Assembly (NCBI RefSeq): GCF_023023025.1
Contig: NZ_CP095481.1
Span: 1,798,001-1,862,000, forward strand
Source: Amycolatopsis sp. WQ 127309
GTDB lineage: Bacteria > Actinomycetota > Actinomycetes > Mycobacteriales > Pseudonocardiaceae
Reading direction: 5' to 3'
DNA: 64,000 bases
Positions 1 through 38,619 of the stretch are shown one piece after another. Numbering within the stretch: position 1 is the stretch's first letter; each line of letters opens with the position of its first letter. A model generated the notes under the pieces. That model was not told where the DNA came from, made no database searches, and saw only the letters and a program-made list of their open reading frames with translations. A program made the translations under genes and the position numbers.

Positions 1-371
1 TCGCCCTCGACCGGGAGCTCCTCGACTTCCAGGAGCTTGGACGACGGCTTCAGGCCCTGCTTGCGCATGTCCTCGGTGTAGGAGGACAACTGCAGCCGCT
101 GGGCGAGCTTCGGCTCGGCCGCAAAGGTGCCTTTTCCCTGCACACGGTGCAGCCGGCCCTCGGCGGTGAGGTCGGCCAGCGCCTGGCGCACGGTGGTGCG
201 GGAGACCGTGAACTCCCCGGCGAGCGCGCGTTCCGTCGGGATCGGCGACCCGGGCGGCAGCACGTCGAGCAGGTCCAGCAGGTGCTGTTTCAGTGCCCAG
301 TACTTGGGCTCTCGCTGACCGCGCATCCCGGCGACGGCACCCGCCTCGCCCGCGGTGGTGGTGTCCAACAT
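1..371 (-). CDS. dasR: GntR/HutC-family regulator, DasR-like (3' end outside window)
   Basis: Only the first 123 codons lie in the window. The ATG is at 371. Residues 20-85 form a GntR winged helix-turn-helix, with SRTTVRQAL at 57-65 as the recognition helix and the family wing QGKGTF at 78-83. The segment from about residue 88 is the start of a UTRA effector domain. DasR-type proteins repress GlcNAc and chitin use and are released by glucosamine-6-phosphate. The identification is strengthened by the divergent SIS and GlcNAc-kinase genes and by a dre-like palindrome in the 148-bp gap between them. NagR is the same functional class, so the symbol rests on actinobacterial context. Confidence 0.9.
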   Translation of the reverse strand, partial: MLDTTTAGEAGAVAGMRGQREPKYWALKQHLLDLLDVLPPGSPIPTERALAGEFTVSRTTVRQALADLTAEGRLHRVQGKGTFAAEPKLAQRLQLSSYTEDMRKQGLKPSSKLLEVEELPVEG

Positions 372-31526: not shown

Positions 31527-32948
31527 CTACGTGAGGTACACGTACTCGTAGTCGAACGGCTTGCCGTTGATGCCCTGCCGCGGCGGCGCCACCCAGCTCG
31601 CGATCTTCCCCCGCTCGTACACCGGGTGCATGAGCGAGCGGACGAACGCGAGGTCCTCGGTCGTGGGCAGCCACTTGTCCTTGCCGGCCAGCCACGTCGT
31701 CTCGTCGACGATCGTCCCGTCGGGAGTGACGTGGTGGCCGGAGTTTATGCCCACATCCCGGTTGAAACCAGGGTGTGGCAACCGGAACGTGAAGTCGATC
31801 CCGGCCTCGCTGAGGATCTTGTTCCAGCGCTTCACGCCGGTCTGGCAGTCGGCGGTGTACTCGCCGCGCAGGTCGAGGTTCAGCAGCAGGATCGCCTGCA
31901 GCTCCTCGGACGTCCAGGTGCCGTCGCCGGCCGGTTTGTCCAGCGTGCGGGCGTCCTCGGTGAGCTTGTGGTCGTCCTTGCGGCGGGTCTCCTGCCAGCG
32001 GCCCTTGAGCCCGGCGGTGTAGTAGTTCGCCGCGTTCGTCGACGTCTCGCTGCCGAACAGGTCGAGCGAGACGGTGTAGTGGAAGTTGATGTAGCGCTGG
32101 ATCAGCTCCAGCGGGATGCCGCCGTGCGGGCCGATGTCGCGCGTGTCGTGCTCGCGGATCAGCTCGGCGCTGCGCATCACCACGCGGTCGACGCCGGTGG
32201 TGCCGACGAACATGTGGTGCGCTTCCTCCTTCAGCATGAACTCGCAGGTGCGCGAGAGCGGGTCGAAGGAGGACTCCTTGAGCGTGCCGAGCTGGTACTT
32301 CCCGTCGCGGTCGGTGAAGTAGGTGAACATGTAGAACGCCAGCCAGTCGGCGGTTTCCTCGTTGAACGCGCCGAGGATGCGGGGCGCGTCCGGGCTGCCG
32401 GAGTTGCGCAGCAGCAGCCCTTCGGCCTCGTCCCGGCCTTCGCGGCCGAAGTAGGCGTGCAACAGGTAAACCATCGCCCACAGGTGACGACCCTCTTCGA
32501 CGTTGACCTGGAACAGGTTCCGCAGGTCGTAGAGGCTCGGCGCGGTGAGGCCGAGGAGCTTCTGCTGCTCGACGGACGCCGGTTCGGTGTCGCCCTGGAT
32601 GACGATCAGCCGTTGCAGGTCGGCGCGGTATTCGCCGGGCACCTGCTGCCACACGGGCTCGCCCTTGTGCTCGCCGAAGGAGATCCGCCGGTCGGGGTCG
32701 CGCTCGGCGAGGAAGATGCCCCAGCGGTAGTCCGGCACGTTGACGTGGTCGAAGTGCGCCCAGCCCTCGCGGCCCACGCTGATCGCGGTCCGCAGGTAGA
32801 CGCCCTGGGTTTCGAGCGTCGGGCCCATCTCGCCCCACCAGTGCATGAACTTCGGCTGCCAGCCCTCCAGCGCGCGCTGCAGCCGGCGGTCGTCGGCGAG
32901 GCTGACGTTGTTGGGGATCTTGGCGTCGTAGTCGATTTTCTCGGGCAT
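31527..32948 (-). CDS. boxB: Benzoyl-CoA 2,3-epoxidase, oxygenase subunit
   Basis: BoxB is the diiron oxygenase that, with reductase BoxA, epoxidises benzoyl-CoA. The 473-residue protein contains EEGRHLWAMVYLL and FMLKEEAHHMFVG, whose EExxH-like Glu and His residues supply diiron ligands. It also has long BoxB-specific segments such as KFMHWWGEMGP near the start and YTADCQTGVKRWNKILSEAG near the end. The ATG at 32948 is 5 bp after the boxC stop. Length and both ends agree with BoxB. Confidence 0.95.
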   Translation of the reverse strand: MPEKIDYDAKIPNNVSLADDRRLQRALEGWQPKFMHWWGEMGPTLETQGVYLRTAISVGREGWAHFDHVNVPDYRWGIFLAERDPDRRISFGEHKGEPVWQQVPGEYRADLQRLIVIQGDTEPASVEQQKLLGLTAPSLYDLRNLFQVNVEEGRHLWAMVYLLHAYFGREGRDEAEGLLLRNSGSPDAPRILGAFNEETADWLAFYMFTYFTDRDGKYQLGTLKESSFDPLSRTCEFMLKEEAHHMFVGTTGVDRVVMRSAELIREHDTRDIGPHGGIPLELIQRYINFHYTVSLDLFGSETSTNAANYYTAGLKGRWQETRRKDDHKLTEDARTLDKPAGDGTWTSEELQAILLLNLDLRGEYTADCQTGVKRWNKILSEAGIDFTFRLPHPGFNRDVGINSGHHVTPDGTIVDETTWLAGKDKWLPTTEDLAFVRSLMHPVYERGKIASWVAPPRQGINGKPFDYEYVYLT

Positions 32949-32953
32949 GGGCG

Positions 32954-34573
32954 CTAGACCCGCTTCCTGTCGAAGACGGCCTTCTGACCAGTACCGTATC
33001 GGCGCAGCGCGCCTTCCGGTCCGGATGCGTTCGGCCGGGTGAAAATCCAGTTCTGCCAAGCCGCCAAGCGGCCGAAGATCTTGGTCTCGATGGTCTCCGG
33101 GCCGACGAACCGGTGGTTGGCCTCCATGCCGGTCAGCGCGTCCGGGCTGAGCGACGCCCGGCCCTCCAGCGCGATCCGGATCTCGTCCTCCCAGTCGAGG
33201 TCGTCCGGCGCGTCGGTGACCAGGCCGAGTTCGACGGCTTCCGCGGCGCTGAGGTCGTGGTCCTTCTCCCGCGCGAGCCAGGCGAGGTGGTCGTCGTCGC
33301 CGTAGAAGCGCGTCTGCAGCCGGGTCAGGCCGTTGCCCATGGGGAACGCGCCGAAGTTGGCCTCGCTGAGCCGGATCGACGCGCGGGCGTCGCTGTCTTC
33401 GTCGTCGATCGGCGGCCCGTCGAGGATGTACTGCCGGTCCGCGGCCAGCGCGACCTCCAGCAGCGCGCCGGCGAAGCAGCTACCGGGTTCGATGAGCGCG
33501 ATCAGGCTGCGGCTGGTGACGTCGAGGCGTTTGAGCGTGCGCTTGAAGTAGTGCGTGATCTCGTTGGCCAGCCAGTCCTTCCCGCCGAGGACGGCCTGCT
33601 CGTGCGCGAGGACCTTCACCGGGTCGCCCTGGCTCCGCAGGATCCAGGTGCCGGCTTCGACCTCGTTGGTGCGCAGCCGCAGGATGGCGTCGTCCAGCTC
33701 GCGCGTCATGGCGAGGAACCAGCCGTCCGCGCCCTCTTCGTGCAGGTCACCCGGATCGTTCTCGGGCCCCTTGACGGTGATGATGGCCTGGTCTTTTCCG
33801 ACTTCGACGTCGACGTAGCGGTGTTCGAGCGGCGTCAGCTCGATGCCGCCCTCGCCGGTCCGGCCGGACTCGCGCGCGATCTCCCGGGCCCGCTGCAGCA
33901 CGGTCTCGCGGAACCCCTGACGCGGCACCAGCTCGTCGACCAGCCGCCAGTCGACGGCTGTCTTCCCCTTGACGCCGTCCGAGCGCGTCGCGAAGACGTC
34001 GGCGAGGTCGCGCCGGACGCGCCGCTTGTCCACCACGCGCGTCAGCCCGCCGGTGCCGGGCAGCACGCCCAGCAGCGGCACCTCCGGCAGCGCGACGGTC
34101 GAGGAGTTGTCGTCGATCAGCAGGATCTTTTCGCAGGCCAGCGCGATCTCGTACCCACCGCCGGCGCACGTCCCGTTGACCGCGGCGACGTAGGTCTGGC
34201 CGGAGTGCGCGGTCGCGTCCTCCATGCCGTTGCGGGTCTCGTTGGTGAACTTGCAGAAGTTCACCTTCCAGTGGTGCTCGGACGCGGCGAGCATCCGGAT
34301 GTTCGCGCCGGCGCAGAACACCTTGTCCTTCGCGCTGGTCACGATGACCACACGCACCTCGGGGTGCTCGAACCGCAGCCGCTGCGTGGCGTCGTACAGC
34401 TCGATGTCGACGCCCAGGTCGTAGGAGTTGAGCTTGAGCTCGTAACCCGGGACCAGCCCGCCCTGCTCGTCGACGTCCAGCTCGAGCCAGGCCACCTCCC
34501 CGTCGAGGCTGAGCCGCCAGTGGCGGTACTCGTCCGGACGGCGGCCGAAGTCAACCGGTGTGGTGGTGGTCAC
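32954..34573 (-). CDS. boxC: Benzoyl-CoA-dihydrodiol lyase (2,3-epoxybenzoyl-CoA dihydrolase)
   Basis: The 539-residue protein is a double crotonase-fold enzyme that opens the ring of 2,3-epoxybenzoyl-CoA with loss of formate. It has the crotonase oxyanion segments VFCAGANIRMLA and NGTCAGGGYEIALACE, and the later EPGSCFAGALLEVALAADR in the second half. It is the first gene of boxC-boxB-ligase-amidohydrolase. The GTG start directly follows GGAGGG, and a good promoter ends 8 bp upstream, so translation may be nearly leaderless. Confidence 0.95.
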   Translation of the reverse strand: MTTTTPVDFGRRPDEYRHWRLSLDGEVAWLELDVDEQGGLVPGYELKLNSYDLGVDIELYDATQRLRFEHPEVRVVIVTSAKDKVFCAGANIRMLAASEHHWKVNFCKFTNETRNGMEDATAHSGQTYVAAVNGTCAGGGYEIALACEKILLIDDNSSTVALPEVPLLGVLPGTGGLTRVVDKRRVRRDLADVFATRSDGVKGKTAVDWRLVDELVPRQGFRETVLQRAREIARESGRTGEGGIELTPLEHRYVDVEVGKDQAIITVKGPENDPGDLHEEGADGWFLAMTRELDDAILRLRTNEVEAGTWILRSQGDPVKVLAHEQAVLGGKDWLANEITHYFKRTLKRLDVTSRSLIALIEPGSCFAGALLEVALAADRQYILDGPPIDDEDSDARASIRLSEANFGAFPMGNGLTRLQTRFYGDDDHLAWLAREKDHDLSAAEAVELGLVTDAPDDLDWEDEIRIALEGRASLSPDALTGMEANHRFVGPETIETKIFGRLAAWQNWIFTRPNASGPEGALRRYGTGQKAVFDRKRV

Positions 34574-35046: not shown

Positions 35047-35132
35047 GGGCCCCCGGAGTCGACTAGATAGATCGCTCTAGCGACGGTACCGCGCGGCGGC
35101 CGTGCCAGGCAAGACACGGCCGCCGCGGGCTC

Positions 35133-36035
35133 TCAGACCAGATCGATGCGGTGCTGCGTCACCGGGTAGCCCGCCTTCGCAAAGGCCTTCGCCATCGGGA
35201 TGTTCGGGACGTCGGTGGCCGCGACGATCCGGTCGGCGCCCTGCGCGACCAGGTCGTGCGTGGCCTCGACCAGCAGGTCGTACGCGTAACCGTGCCCCCG
35301 CTGCCCGGGCACCACGGCGATGTAGCCGACCACCGGGTCGTAGTGGTTGCGGCTCGGCAACGCGAAGCCGACCAGGTCGCCTTCGCGCGTGTACGCGAGC
35401 CGCCACCACTCCCGCGGCGCCGGCATCCACCGCATGATGTCGAGGTCCTCCTGCGCGGCGGCCTCGACGCCCTGCTCGGCCACCACGCGGCGGACGTGCG
35501 CGTCGAGGCTGTCCGCGTTGACCTTGCGGAAGACGTCGAGGATGACGTCGTCGTCCGGTTCGGGCCGGAACTCGAGCCGTCCGGGCCGCTCCGGCAGGCC
35601 GTTTTCCGGCGTCCAGCAGTACCGGTAGCGCTCGACGAGCTTGCGGTAGCCCGCCTTCTCCGCCGCTTCGACGCGGATGGTCACCTCGTGGGCGACGTCC
35701 GGGTCGTCCTGCCACGCAGGCGGCGTGGTCAGCGAGTACTCCGCCCGGAACGGCGCCGTCGTCAGCAGCTGCACGGCGGCGTCGAGGTCGGTGAAGTCGA
35801 ACCAGTCGAGCGCGATCGGCTCTTCGTCGTCAGGCCCTGCCCACCAGGCGGCCCGCGCCACGACGACGCCGTCGCGCAGCGCGACCCACGACCAGCCGGG
35901 CCGGTACTCGCCCCGGAGGGCCATCTCGGCGTAGTCCTTGCCGAGCAGCTTGCGGCCGACGAGACCGCGGTCGGGCAGGGAGGTGAACAGTGTTTCTTCG
36001 CCCGCTTCGAGCGGGCGCACGACCAGATCGGTCAT
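35133..36035 (-). CDS. GNAT-family N-acetyltransferase under a leader-peptide-type 5' region
   Basis: The 300-residue protein has a degenerate GNAT-like N-terminal half and a typical GNAT C-terminal half. IAVVPGQRGHGYAYDLLVEA (motif A, acetyl-CoA pyrophosphate loop) lies near 236-255 and TDVPNIPMAKAFAKAGY (motif B) near 275. The substrate is unknown; antibiotics or other amines are typical. SD GGAAGGA is 5 nt before the ATG and partly inside a hairpin. The 5' region carries an 18-codon ORF with a perfect SD and two mutually exclusive hairpins, so expression is probably controlled by translation of that leader. Confidence 0.82.
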   Translation of the reverse strand: MTDLVVRPLEAGEETLFTSLPDRGLVGRKLLGKDYAEMALRGEYRPGWSWVALRDGVVVARAAWWAGPDDEEPIALDWFDFTDLDAAVQLLTTAPFRAEYSLTTPPAWQDDPDVAHEVTIRVEAAEKAGYRKLVERYRYCWTPENGLPERPGRLEFRPEPDDDVILDVFRKVNADSLDAHVRRVVAEQGVEAAAQEDLDIMRWMPAPREWWRLAYTREGDLVGFALPSRNHYDPVVGYIAVVPGQRGHGYAYDLLVEATHDLVAQGADRIVAATDVPNIPMAKAFAKAGYPVTQHRIDLV

Positions 36036-36045
36036 GGAAATCCTT

Positions 36046-36108
36046 CCGGGAGTACGCGCGCGCTCCCGGTCTACGGACTGGGCACCCTCGTTGCGAGGTG
36101 GGAGCGCG
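36046..36108 (-). promoter_or_regulatory. Candidate attenuator: two mutually exclusive hairpins
   Basis: Hairpin A pairs 36059-36067 with 36100-36108 (9 bp, perfect) and encloses a small CCTCG/CGAGG stem (36086-36098). Hairpin B pairs 36046-36052 with 36063-36069 (7 bp, perfect). Both use 36063-36067, so they cannot coexist. A's 5' arm lies inside the leader ORF, and B covers the edge of the GNAT SD (36041-36047). Ribosome position on the leader would choose between them. Confidence 0.55.
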
Positions 36109-36127
36109 TGATCGGTTGCGTGATCAT
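36071..36127 (-). CDS. Putative 18-residue leader peptide upstream of GNAT
   Basis: The ORF encodes MITQPITRSHLATRVPSP and ends in TAG. It is preceded by AAGGAGG (36136-36142), 8 nt from the ATG, the best Shine-Dalgarno site seen in the window. It ends 35 bp before the GNAT ATG. It is not a domain-bearing protein; its likely purpose is to be translated in cis so that ribosome progress sets the RNA fold. The start at 36127 is fixed by the SD. Confidence 0.6.
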   Translation of the reverse strand: MITQPITRSHLATRVPSP

Positions 36128-36166
36128 CGGACCCACCTCCTTTCGCCGGTCAAGGGTGCGAGGCAG

Positions 36167-36196
36167 AACCTACGGGCCGCCTGCGCCGGGCGTCAA
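36167..36196 (-). promoter_or_regulatory. Promoter of the leader-GNAT transcript
   Basis: On the minus strand, TTGACG (36191-36196) and TAGGTT (36167-36172) are separated by 18 bp. The -35 overlaps the stop codon of the GH3 gene. Transcription would begin near 36160, about 20 nt before the leader SD. Confidence 0.6.
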
Positions 36197-38619
36197 CGGA
36201 TTTTCTGCAGCACGGTCCGCGTGCTCAGCCGGGGCTCGGCGTAGGAGTGCGACGCCTCGAGGACGTACTCGCCGGCGATGTGCTGCCAGCCGTCGCGCCA
36301 GGTCGAGACCGAGCGCGGCACGATCGCGATCTCGGCGTCCACCGCCTCTCCCGGGCCGGCTTCGACGCTCGCGAAGCCGGCGAGCCAACGGTGCGGGCGG
36401 TCGCCGCGTTCGGTCGGGACCAGGTAGAGCTGGACGACTTCGCGGCCCTTGCGCGTCCCGGTGTTGCGGAGGCGGACGCGCACCTTCGCGCCGCCTTCGT
36501 CGTCCGGGAAGACGTCCAGCTCGTCGTAGGACCAGGTCGTGTAACCGCGGCCGTGGCCGAACCAGTAGGCGGGCTGCTTCTCGGAACGGGCCCACGCGCT
36601 GTAGCCGATGTAGACGCCTTCTTCGTACGGCAGCACGCTTTCTTCGGGCGTCACGCGGGTGACGGGGGCGTCTTCGAGCTTGGCCGGCCAAGTCGTCGGC
36701 AGCCGTCCGCCGGGCTCTTCGCGGCCGAAGAGGACGTCGGCGAGCGCGTCGCCGCCGGCCTGGCCGGGGAACCAGGTGAGCAGCACCGCGGCGACGTCGT
36801 CGCGCCACGGCAGCTCGACCGGCGAACCGGCGTTGACGACGACCACGGTGTTCGGGTTGGCCCGCGCGACGCGCGTGACGAGCTCGTCCTGCCTTCCTGG
36901 CAGAGCCAGGGAAGTCCGGTCGAAACCCTCGCTCTCGACCTCGGCGGTGGTGCCGACCACGACGATCGCGACGTCGGACTTCCCGGCCAGCGCAACGGCT
37001 TCGTCGAGCGCGGCGTCCGGGTCGAGCACCGGGCCGCGGTGCCCGAGCGCGAAGGTGACCCAGGCGAAGGTGCCGCGCGCGAACTCCGCCATCTCCGACG
37101 GGACCCAGTAGGTCAGGCTGACCTCGACCGGTTCGCCCGCGGTCAGCTCGACGTCCCGCCGCTGCTCGATGACCTGCATGATCGACGTGAAGACGTCACC
37201 GCCTTCGGGCAGGTTGACGCCGTCGAAGAGGGTCTGCCCGCCGACGACCAGGCGGAGGTCGCCGGGGCCGGTGAGGCCGAAGGTGTGCGTGCCGGTGGTC
37301 TCCGGGAAGAACGTGCCGTCGATCTCGACGCTCGCGAGCGTGGCCAGGTCGAGGCCGGCCGGCAGCTCGCCGATCCAGTCGATTCTCGCCTCTCGCAACG
37401 AAAATTCAGCCAATCGGGTGCCATCTGCGGCTTTGGCGGTCGCACGGAGCCGGAAATTGTCGGTGGCCGGCGGTAGCGTCGTTCGCGGATCGGCACCGAT
37501 GGCGTAAGTGAGTTCGGTGCCAACGGGAACGGCCTTCCGGAGGCCGTCGAGAGGGGAGACCACGTGGTCGGGAAACACGGTGGCACTGCCGCCGCCGAGG
37601 ATCTTCGGGTCCGCGGCCAGCGCACCGATCAGGGCGATGCGCTTTGGTTCACGCAGCGGAAGCGCGCCGGTTTCGTTGCTAAGCAACACGAACGACCGGT
37701 GCGCGATCTCACGCGCGACCGCTTCACCGTCCACAGTGGAGTCTTGTCCCGCCGGGCTTTCGCCGAGCGCGCCGGTCCGGTGGGCCAGCAGGAGCACGCG
37801 GCGGACCATGTCGTCGACGACGTCGGAGTCGACCTCGCCGCCGCGCACGGCTTCGGCGAGCCGGTCGCCGAACACGGTGCGCGGGCCCGGCATCGCGACG
37901 TCGAGCCCACCGTTGGCGGACGCCACGGTGTCGCGCGCGGCCAGCCAGTCGGAGACGACGAAGCCGTCGAAGCCCCACTCGTCGCGCAGCACGCCGTTGA
38001 GCAGGTCGCCGTGCTGGGTCATCGTGATGCCGTTGACGCTGTTGTAGGCGGCCATGATCCCCCACGGCTTCGCCCGCCGGACGATGAGTTCGAACGGCGC
38101 GAGGTAGAGCTCGCGCAGCGCGCGTTCGCCGACGCGGACGTCGGCGGTGAAGCGTTCGGTCTCGAAGTCGTTGGCGACGAAGTGCTTGACCGTGACGCCG
38201 ACCCCGCCGTCCTGCACGCCGGTGACGTAACCGGCGCCGACCATCCCGGTGAGGAGGGGATCTTCGGAGTAGCACTCGAAGTGCCGGCCGCCCAGCGGTG
38301 AGCGCTGGAGGTTGACCGTGGGCGCGAGGAGCACGTGCACGCCCTTGCGGCGGGCCTCCTGCGCGAGCAGCCGCCCGGCGCGCACGGCCAGGCGCGGATC
38401 CCAGGCGGCGGCGAGCGCCGTCGGGCTGGGCAGGGTGACAGACGGGTCGTCCGGGCTCCACCGCACGCCGCGGACGCCGACCGGGCCGTCGGAGAGGACG
38501 AGCGACCGGAGCCCGATCTCCGGCCGGGCGGGCAGGCTCCAGACGTCCTGACCGGCGAGCAGGCTCGCCTTGGCGTCCAGGTCGAGTTCGTCCAGCAGCG
38601 CGTCGACGTCGAAGCTCAT
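36193..38619 (-). CDS. Family 3 beta-glucosidase with PA14 domain
   Basis: In this 808-residue GH3 enzyme, the N-terminal TIM-like domain (about 1-290) has KHFVANDFETER and the nucleophile region GFVVSDW with Asp224. A PA14 carbohydrate-binding insert (about 385-520) interrupts the second alpha/beta domain, as in KglI-type glucosidases. A fibronectin-III-like domain ends the protein. No signal peptide is seen, so it probably acts on imported oligosaccharides. beta-Xylosidase or other aryl-glycosidase activity is possible. It is transcribed alone, divergent from a TetR gene. Confidence 0.92.
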   Translation of the reverse strand: MSFDVDALLDELDLDAKASLLAGQDVWSLPARPEIGLRSLVLSDGPVGVRGVRWSPDDPSVTLPSPTALAAAWDPRLAVRAGRLLAQEARRKGVHVLLAPTVNLQRSPLGGRHFECYSEDPLLTGMVGAGYVTGVQDGGVGVTVKHFVANDFETERFTADVRVGERALRELYLAPFELIVRRAKPWGIMAAYNSVNGITMTQHGDLLNGVLRDEWGFDGFVVSDWLAARDTVASANGGLDVAMPGPRTVFGDRLAEAVRGGEVDSDVVDDMVRRVLLLAHRTGALGESPAGQDSTVDGEAVAREIAHRSFVLLSNETGALPLREPKRIALIGALAADPKILGGGSATVFPDHVVSPLDGLRKAVPVGTELTYAIGADPRTTLPPATDNFRLRATAKAADGTRLAEFSLREARIDWIGELPAGLDLATLASVEIDGTFFPETTGTHTFGLTGPGDLRLVVGGQTLFDGVNLPEGGDVFTSIMQVIEQRRDVELTAGEPVEVSLTYWVPSEMAEFARGTFAWVTFALGHRGPVLDPDAALDEAVALAGKSDVAIVVVGTTAEVESEGFDRTSLALPGRQDELVTRVARANPNTVVVVNAGSPVELPWRDDVAAVLLTWFPGQAGGDALADVLFGREEPGGRLPTTWPAKLEDAPVTRVTPEESVLPYEEGVYIGYSAWARSEKQPAYWFGHGRGYTTWSYDELDVFPDDEGGAKVRVRLRNTGTRKGREVVQLYLVPTERGDRPHRWLAGFASVEAGPGEAVDAEIAIVPRSVSTWRDGWQHIAGEYVLEASHSYAEPRLSTRTVLQKIR

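Follow-up and report, generated by a model that had tools for sequence, protein, structure and literature searches.

The acetyltransferase locus and its leader

A stretch of 64,000 nucleotides from the 11.13 Mb genome of Amycolatopsis sp. WQ 127309 (hereafter the window) encodes a GNAT acetyltransferase that scored above the Pfam cut-offs for PF00583 (37 bits vs a cut-off of 20.7) and PF13302. Its best solved relative was a nourseothricin acetyltransferase (E 0.007), a match to part of the protein that is little informative. Matches to the GNAT at E ≤ 0.001, many of them distant, were detected in 53 of 80 genomes of the genus, 71 of 249 of the family and 63 of 296 of the class.

An imperfect, operator-like palindrome, GATAGATCGCTCTAGCGA (35066-35083, plus strand), lies 3' of the GNAT gene and 5' of a 146-aa gene (35046-34606, minus strand); it has one match in the window (0.00 expected) and is exact in 29 of 30 same-genus loci (L003-L032). 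The adjoining genes at 31527-33059 and 32954-34573 (both minus strand) exceeded the NCBIfam cut-offs for BoxB (benzoyl-CoA epoxidase) and BoxC (2,3-epoxybenzoyl-CoA dihydrolase), respectively, of the aerobic benzoyl-CoA pathway.

A leader of about 125 nt separates the promoter from the GNAT gene, and the whole element lies, like the gene, on the minus strand. Its features, in the direction of transcription, are the following:

36167..36205, minus strand: promoter GAAAAT-CCG-TTGACG-18-TAGGTT, matching the WblC/WhiB7 consensus (TTGACG at 36196-36191, spacer of 18, TAGGTT at 36172-36167)
36151..36159, minus strand: arm a, GCACCCTTG, pairing with d (covariation)
36132..36143, minus strand: leader Shine-Dalgarno sequence (SD), AAAGGAGGTGGG
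36139-36132, minus strand: arm b, GAGGTGGG, within the leader SD and able to pair with c
36071..36127, minus strand: leader open reading frame (ORF) of 18 codons, MITQPITRSHLATRVPSP (open reading frame and stop-frame test)
36095..36108, minus strand: arm c, CGCGCTCCCACCTC, leader codons 7-11 (covariation)
36082..36090, minus strand: arm d, CGAGGGTGC, late in the leader, pairing with a
36059..36069, minus strand: arm e, CCGGGAGCGCG, past the leader stop, with c or f as partner
36052-36046, minus strand: arm f, CTCCCGG, partner of e and part of the feature 36041..36052
36047-36041, minus strand: SD of the acetyltransferase gene, GGAAGGA, its first two bases overlapped by arm f
35133..36035, minus strand: GNAT acetyltransferase gene, 300 aa

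The original prediction had placed at this site a promoter TTGACG-18-TAGGTT, an 18-codon leader ORF and two mutually exclusive hairpins sharing 36063-36067, the first with an arm inside the ORF and the last touching the SD of the GNAT gene, and all of these features were found on the minus strand. Hairpin A (c-e) joins CGCGCTCCC (36108-36100), inside the ORF (36127-36071), with GGGAGCGCG (36067-36059), and hairpin B (e-f) joins CCGGGAG (36069-36063) with CTCCCGG in arm f, which reaches into the gene's SD. The leader ORF has a strong SD, and its stop codon, TAG, lies one base 5' of arm e. The transcript would be expected to begin at arm a, 7-8 nt past the -10 hexamer.

Two more helices were recognized in addition to those predicted, a-d (GCACCCTTG/CGAGGGTGC) and b-c (GAGGTGGG/CCCACCTC). 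Arm c takes part in both states of the element, its CGCGCTCCC part pairing with e in the open state and its CCCACCTC part (36102-36095) with the leader SD, b, in the closed state. In the lowest-energy fold a-d encloses b-c and is followed by e-f; the region 36030-36160 folds with -58 kcal/mol (z -3.41), and 1 of 200 shuffled sequences folded equally well. Chance folding was rejected by this shuffle test and by the covariation found in relatives, compared with slid and shuffled controls.

Conservation and covariation at GNAT loci

The element was recognized in 66 of 74 distinct loci of the GNAT and its relatives, two of which (L065 and L070) carry an altered form; it is present in the same-genus genome G052. 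These loci derive from a set of 76 (L003-L078) that includes two duplicates (L056, L058), one gene with an unresolved start (L034) and seven loci without the element. The latter are six GNAT relatives with 38-42% identity (L047-L052) and L035, where no element was recognized and a covariance model gave a weak match (E 0.065). R1, a covariance model built on the closed state, found the element in 13 of 13 class-level orthologues (L132-L144, E 0.0008 or better), twelve of them in the genus g68 and one (L132) in another family, and also at L145; no match at E ≤ 0.1 was obtained at L047-L052, L034 or L148.

The 66 leaders of the GNAT class (type I) were aligned (alignment A1). Of the a-d cells 74% are paired, and 8 of the 9 pairs change on both sides. 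The c-e helix, taken in two halves, is paired in 97.3 and 98.5% of the cells, and one of its 8 pairs changes on both sides (C-G to U-A). For e-f the values are 92% and 4 of 6 pairs, and for b-c, which covaries little, 85% and 2 of 9 pairs. Slid controls, in which the partner was moved by 1-3 columns, gave 34-62% of paired cells. In 500 partner shuffles the observed percent paired, covariation score and number of both-side-changing cells were never reached; the number of both-side-changing pairs was matched in 35 of 500 shuffles in a first test and 0 of 500 in a second, and the further pair types in 296 and 39 of 500, respectively. When run unguided, RNAalifold proposed b-c together with e-f on this alignment. 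Some rows of A1 (L020, L023, and L077 among them) have arm a or arm e misplaced by MAFFT, as do the PrmC rows of the second alignment (A2, see below) for arm a, and the pair percentages are lowered in the affected rows for this reason.

The helices c-e and e-f, which exclude each other, are both kept across A1. The comparison points to two alternative folds, one of which would mask the SD of the gene. The check for covariation and leader conservation in relatives that had been proposed with the prediction found the helices kept, as well as the frame and stop of the leader.

A second type of element before other genes

Most of the elements located before genes other than the window's GNAT share a second layout (type II), which reads GACCGTGAC - GAGGAGGTGAG - CCCATGAACGC - GTGGGTGCTCCC - GTCACGGTC - stop - GGTGTCGC - CGGGAGCGC - CTCCCG - AAAGG. 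In an alignment of 75 of the 135 listed second-type elements (A2), 79% of the a-d cells are paired and 8 of the 9 pairs change on both sides; for c-e the figure is 99.7%, and 7 of 9 pairs are invariant; for e-f it is 91%, with 1 of 9 pairs changing on both sides; and for an extra helix, g-h, over the spacer of the gene's SD, it is 66%. Slid controls were paired in 36-48%. The cells with both-side changes were not above those of the best slid control (58 vs 60 and 39 vs 39), so that the support given by this alignment comes from the percent paired and the covariation score. Unguided RNAalifold proposed c-e on A2.

Matches to R1 at E ≤ 0.01 were found in 100 of the 249 family genomes, the weaker ones often before other genes. 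A pattern of leader SD, c and e was present in 59 of these 249 genomes, and its reversed form gave none among the matches listed for them. The same pattern was found in at least 118 stretches across 84,980 species genomes; among the 80 matches listed, 79 belong to Actinomycetota and one to a Dyella without a target gene. The genera among the matches listed include Streptomyces, Micromonospora, Nonomuraea, Actinomadura, Rhodococcus, Mycobacterium, Nocardia, Arthrobacter, Kribbella, and others.

The targets of these 80 listed matches are an esterase-like hydrolase (22), a rifampin-monooxygenase-like protein (18), a second GNAT (11), a patatin-like protein (10), a PrmC-related methyltransferase (10) and the window's GNAT (4); five were left unclassified, four of them genes cut off by the end of the stretch and the fifth that of Dyella. 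In the family, 78 classified loci comprise rifampin-monooxygenase-like (27), esterase-like (23), second GNAT (19), window's GNAT (6), PrmC-related (2) and patatin-like (1) targets. They come from 88 loci (L161-L248), two of which (L174, L236) were dropped as wrong-strand matches and eight of which (L167, L171, L175, L176, L178, L185, L227, and L238) failed the layout pattern; several of these eight show the element on direct reading. Among representatives of the classes, L165 scored 803 bits against the cut-off of 800 of the NCBIfam rifampin monooxygenase model NF033145 (one representative scanned), L178 exceeded the NCBIfam cut-off for the PrmC-related methyltransferase, L167 and L161 those of Pfam for patatin and GNAT, respectively, and the product of L175 resembles an esterase of known structure (E 2e-37). 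The esterase-like gene L175 lies in the window's own genome, preceded by a second element (G000:C1:125060-125213) that R1 matched with E 0.005 in the family search and 4e-5 in a smaller search. At L176 (G080:C5:211616-211777) a recognizable element precedes a GNAT remnant, which matches in pieces with stops.

Among 44 rifampin-monooxygenase-like proteins, counted with repeated places, twelve are extended at the N-terminus by 25 aa or more, and nine of these extensions gave a match to N-termini of esterase-like proteins (E ≤ 1e-3). Of the nine, six show 61-74% identity over 40-45 positions, L181 and L288 giving the same match, and the remaining ones are weaker or shorter; the extension-bearing loci include L262, L282, L288, L311, L317, and L181. 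Since the monooxygenase extensions match esterase N-termini, it seems that the leader and the first codons of one target were moved together before another target.

Searches of Rfam release 15 gave no match in the window at the gathering scores and none at E ≤ 1 in six element-bearing loci. Among the matches listed in a search of the open-access full-text literature, no description of the element was found. Judged from these comparisons, the window element is one member of a widespread actinobacterial leader-switch family without an Rfam match.

Promoters of the elements

The consensus reported for WblC of Streptomyces coelicolor in a passage of PMC7157823 reads GAAAWY-3-TKGMNN-16..19-TANNNT. 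WhiB7 is described as responding to ribosome-targeting drugs and controlling GNATs. Considering either strand, this consensus is met once in the window, at 36205-36167, by the element promoter; GNATs are described as part of the WblC/WhiB7 regulon. A generic sigma-70 scan of 35500-37200 reported nothing, the element promoter being below the threshold of that scan. The strict consensus was found in 30 of 66 type I elements and in none of 50 shuffle rounds.

Strict and relaxed forms of the consensus were detected, respectively, in 31 and 48 of 69 promoters of the window's GNAT class, 2 and 21 of 28 of the second GNAT class, 2 and 27 of 39 of the monooxygenase class, 2 and 29 of 45 of the esterase class, 0 and 2 of 11 of the patatin class, and 0 and 0 of 12 of the PrmC class. 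Second-type elements overall met the strict form in 6 of 138 cases; unsplit second-type promoter sets (73 and 79) include a few GNAT-class elements, which the counts by class separate. Judging by these counts, promoters of the WhiB7 type are likely in no more than the first four classes (two GNATs, monooxygenase and esterase). In the genome of the window, ten Pfam Whib matches were obtained, and one of nine examined, L375, carries both GVWGGE and an AT-hook, which are marks of WhiB7. The window gene is probably transcribed under WhiB7/WblC control.

Translation of the leader

The leader SD is followed by an ATG, GTG or TTG triplet in 191 of 207 distinct elements. The first in-frame stop falls just before arm e in 194 of the 201 elements entering the stop test, earlier in 3 and later in 4, compared with 31 and 33 of 201 for the other two frames in the same stretch (in the other elements of the 207 a start or arm e was not identified). 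In the window's class the stretch covers 6 start positions and the counts were 57, 0 and 0 of 64; for the other classes it covers 28 start positions. Apart from the non-AUG leaders, variation at the start triplet is nearly confined to ATG and GTG. Starts of AUC, AUU or GUU were found in 11 of 12 PrmC-class elements (L253, L256, L261, L265, L268, L276, L301, L315, L319, L324, and L213); in the esterase class, 3 of 45 elements begin with AUC or AUU. All 11 non-AUG PrmC leaders still reach their first in-frame stop immediately before e, the picture that would be expected of non-AUG starts. By every comparative sign tested, the leader is translated.

In 197 of 206 elements the distance from the first base of the start codon to the beginning of arm c is 18-24 nt, most often 21-22 nt, and this holds in all three frames. 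For comparison, start-stalled ribosomes of Escherichia coli are described in a passage of PMC12121999 as ending at +16 to +18.

Predicted effect of ribosome position on the folds

Folding was modeled with only the RNA downstream of the ribosome allowed to fold and nothing pairing across it, for 59 type I elements of 64 entered and for 117 of 138 distinct second-type elements. For the window element the numbers of c-e and e-f pairs were 0 and 8.5 without a ribosome and 8.8 and 0.02 with a ribosome on the start codon; neither helix was full at codons 4, 5 and 10 (about 2 pairs), e-f mostly returned from codon 6, and both helices were blocked at the leader end. The accessibility of its gene SD rose only from 0.30 to 0.36 with the ribosome at the start. 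Type I means (n = 59) for c-e and e-f were 0.4 and 6.8 without a ribosome, 5.5 and 2.8 at codon 1, and 0.1 and 7.1 at codon 7, and SD accessibility increased by more than 0.1 at codon 1 in 33 of 59. Type II hardly switches: with the ribosome at the start c-e reached 1.1 and e-f 8.2 (n = 117), accessibility increased by more than 0.1 in only 11 of 117, and e-f decreased to 6.1 with the ribosome at the leader end. Accessibility at the leader end vs the start was 0.50 vs 0.43 in type I and 0.49 vs 0.42 in type II, and a ribosome on the last sense codon raised it by more than 0.1 in 44 of 59 type I and 52 of 117 type II elements. An alternative fold with the footprint entered as unpaired bases gave weaker effects, because pairs could close around the ribosome. 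Folding at equilibrium, from which folding during transcription could depart, thus supports a start-codon model for the window's type; for the second type only the anatomy of the element supports it.

The original prediction had hairpin B favoured and the gene SD partly masked when the leader is covered by a ribosome, and allowed for a logic different from that of the erm type. On average the in silico folds agree with the former for a mid-leader ribosome and give the opposite for one on the start codon. Since a start-codon ribosome would free the gene, the leader SD acting as a fourth arm, the predicted logic is instead erm-like, with the start codon as the sensing place.

Proposed mechanism and alternative explanations

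The element is fairly probably a ribosome-mediated translational attenuator opened by a ribosome held at the leader start. Ribosome-mediated attenuation as such, the layout that had been proposed from the sequence, is well supported by the conserved leader frame and stop, the retention of both exclusive helices and a promoter fitting an antibiotic-stress regulator. In the absence of a ribosome a-d and b-c would be paired, burying the leader SD, and e-f would form and mask the SD of the gene. A ribosome on the leader start codon would cover b and leave c free just beyond its leading edge; c would then pair with e, releasing f and the gene SD, and e-f would form again once an elongating ribosome lies over c. 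If a ribosome is held at the end of the leader instead, it would cover e and perhaps open the attenuator as well. As occupancy of the start codon would be enough to free c and open the gene, the signal sensed would be ribosomes stopped on the leader start or shortly after it, such as inhibitors of early translation would cause, and no particular nascent peptide. Given the probable WhiB7/WblC promoter and the leader, production of the enzyme would require translation stress twice over, to activate the promoter and to open the leader. Comparison among the elements supports the helices, the frame and stop of the leader, the start-to-c distance and the promoter match, and the switch of the window's type is seen only in silico; the inducer, the WhiB7 dependence and the substrate of the enzyme are what we infer.

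An unlikely alternative, and the one that survives best, is termination coupling, in which a ribosome finishing the leader covers e and breaks e-f, the gene is loaded or reinitiated, and control lies in access to the leader SD (b-c and a-d) with no stalling. The position of the first in-frame stop just before e and the greater opening by a last-codon than by a start-codon ribosome (in the 44 of 59 and 52 of 117 elements mentioned above) are as it would have them; however, it leaves unexplained the best-kept helix, c-e (97.3-99.7% paired), which is broken in that state, and the frame-independent distance of c from the start.

An arrest of the ErmCL kind, in which the nascent leader peptide stalls a drug-bound ribosome, has little probability. 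Unchanged MITQPITRSH at 21 of the 28 nearest loci (L003-L030) and the recurrent N-terminal MNA or MIT are what such an arrest might require, but all three frames of the core GCTCCC are used among 206 elements, giving RSH, WVLP, GAP or CSP, and the C-termini vary among elements. Peptide-specific arrest was rejected as a general mechanism on the grounds of this reading in all three frames; with the leader frame and stop kept, it is translation that appears to be selected and not the peptide.

Lower still is the probability that the element is a ligand-binding riboswitch or protein-binding RNA, with SD-like and start-like sequences as part of the receptor. Sequence kept outside the helices, around GAGGAGGTGAG and CCCATGAACGC, and the non-AUG/GUG starts of the PrmC and esterase classes could be read in this way, yet the PrmC leaders keep their stop before e, elsewhere variation of the start is nearly confined to ATG and GTG, and six loci gave no Rfam match even at E 1. 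Least probable is transcriptional attenuation via Rho or a terminator, with the folds deciding the progress of RNA polymerase: terminators are described for actinobacterial whiB7/wblC and ABCF leaders (passages of PMC11550727 and PMC12421871) and masking is coupled to Rho in toiL (a passage of PMC12121999), but arm f overlaps the gene SD and no long U-run follows e-f. A terminator-type attenuator found no support in the scan of 35500-37200, which gave 0 intrinsic-terminator-like sites.

Relation to known systems

Attenuators of the erm/cat type alternate between 1-2/3-4 and 2-3 pairing, the last arm masking the SD of the gene. The attenuator proposed here follows the same scheme, with the last arm over the gene SD, and differs from them in that arm 1 is the leader SD instead of leader codons and in that the peptide is unconserved across elements.

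According to the parts of PMC12121999 concerned with it, the toiL uORF of topAI in E. coli responds to tetracycline, which holds ribosomes at the start codon and so opens a masked ribosome-binding site, and retapamulin induces too. A short uORF, an RNA structure masking a downstream ribosome-binding site and, in the mechanism proposed here, opening by start-codon-held ribosomes are common to both systems; compared by description, toiL is one gamma-proteobacterial locus, whereas the present element belongs to an actinobacterial family with arms a-f and several target classes. Leaders of whiB7/wblC and of ARE5 ABCF genes (tiaA, are5sc) are likewise actinobacterial uORFs; they answer ribosome-targeting drugs, and are5scL1 and tiaAL are described as stalling at the start codon (passages of PMC11550727, PMC10727445, and PMC12421871); they differ in their terminator/antiterminator folds. 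The cplR leader of Clostridioides difficile also has a very short uORF and reported translational attenuation, to which, in the portion of PMC10201436 concerned, transcriptional attenuation is added, and it belongs to another phylum and has another target.

Significance

The family would probably represent a portable switch for making these enzymes under ribosome trouble, some of the targets being of the antibiotic-modifying type. More tentatively, it is possible that a single portable device across Actinomycetota senses start-codon-held ribosomes regardless of peptide and frame. It would have come to precede six or more enzyme classes unrelated to each other, some of which combine it with a promoter of the WhiB7 type; occasionally the opening codons of another target would accompany it. 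Because the PrmC leaders start with AUC, AUU or GUU and their promoters are not WhiB7-like, the PrmC version would read the state of initiation, that is, start-codon selection, and not drug arrest.

If this holds, one shared ribosome-sensing RNA switch of actinobacteria would put unrelated enzymes, including rifampin monooxygenase homologues, under the control of translation stress, and would provide a handle on the possible silence of such enzymes in ordinary screens. Candidate stress enzymes would then be findable by the leader alone, the esterase-like, patatin-like and two GNAT classes being such candidates, and the family would constitute a natural sensor of start-codon occupancy whose rules may be read from 207 distinct variants.
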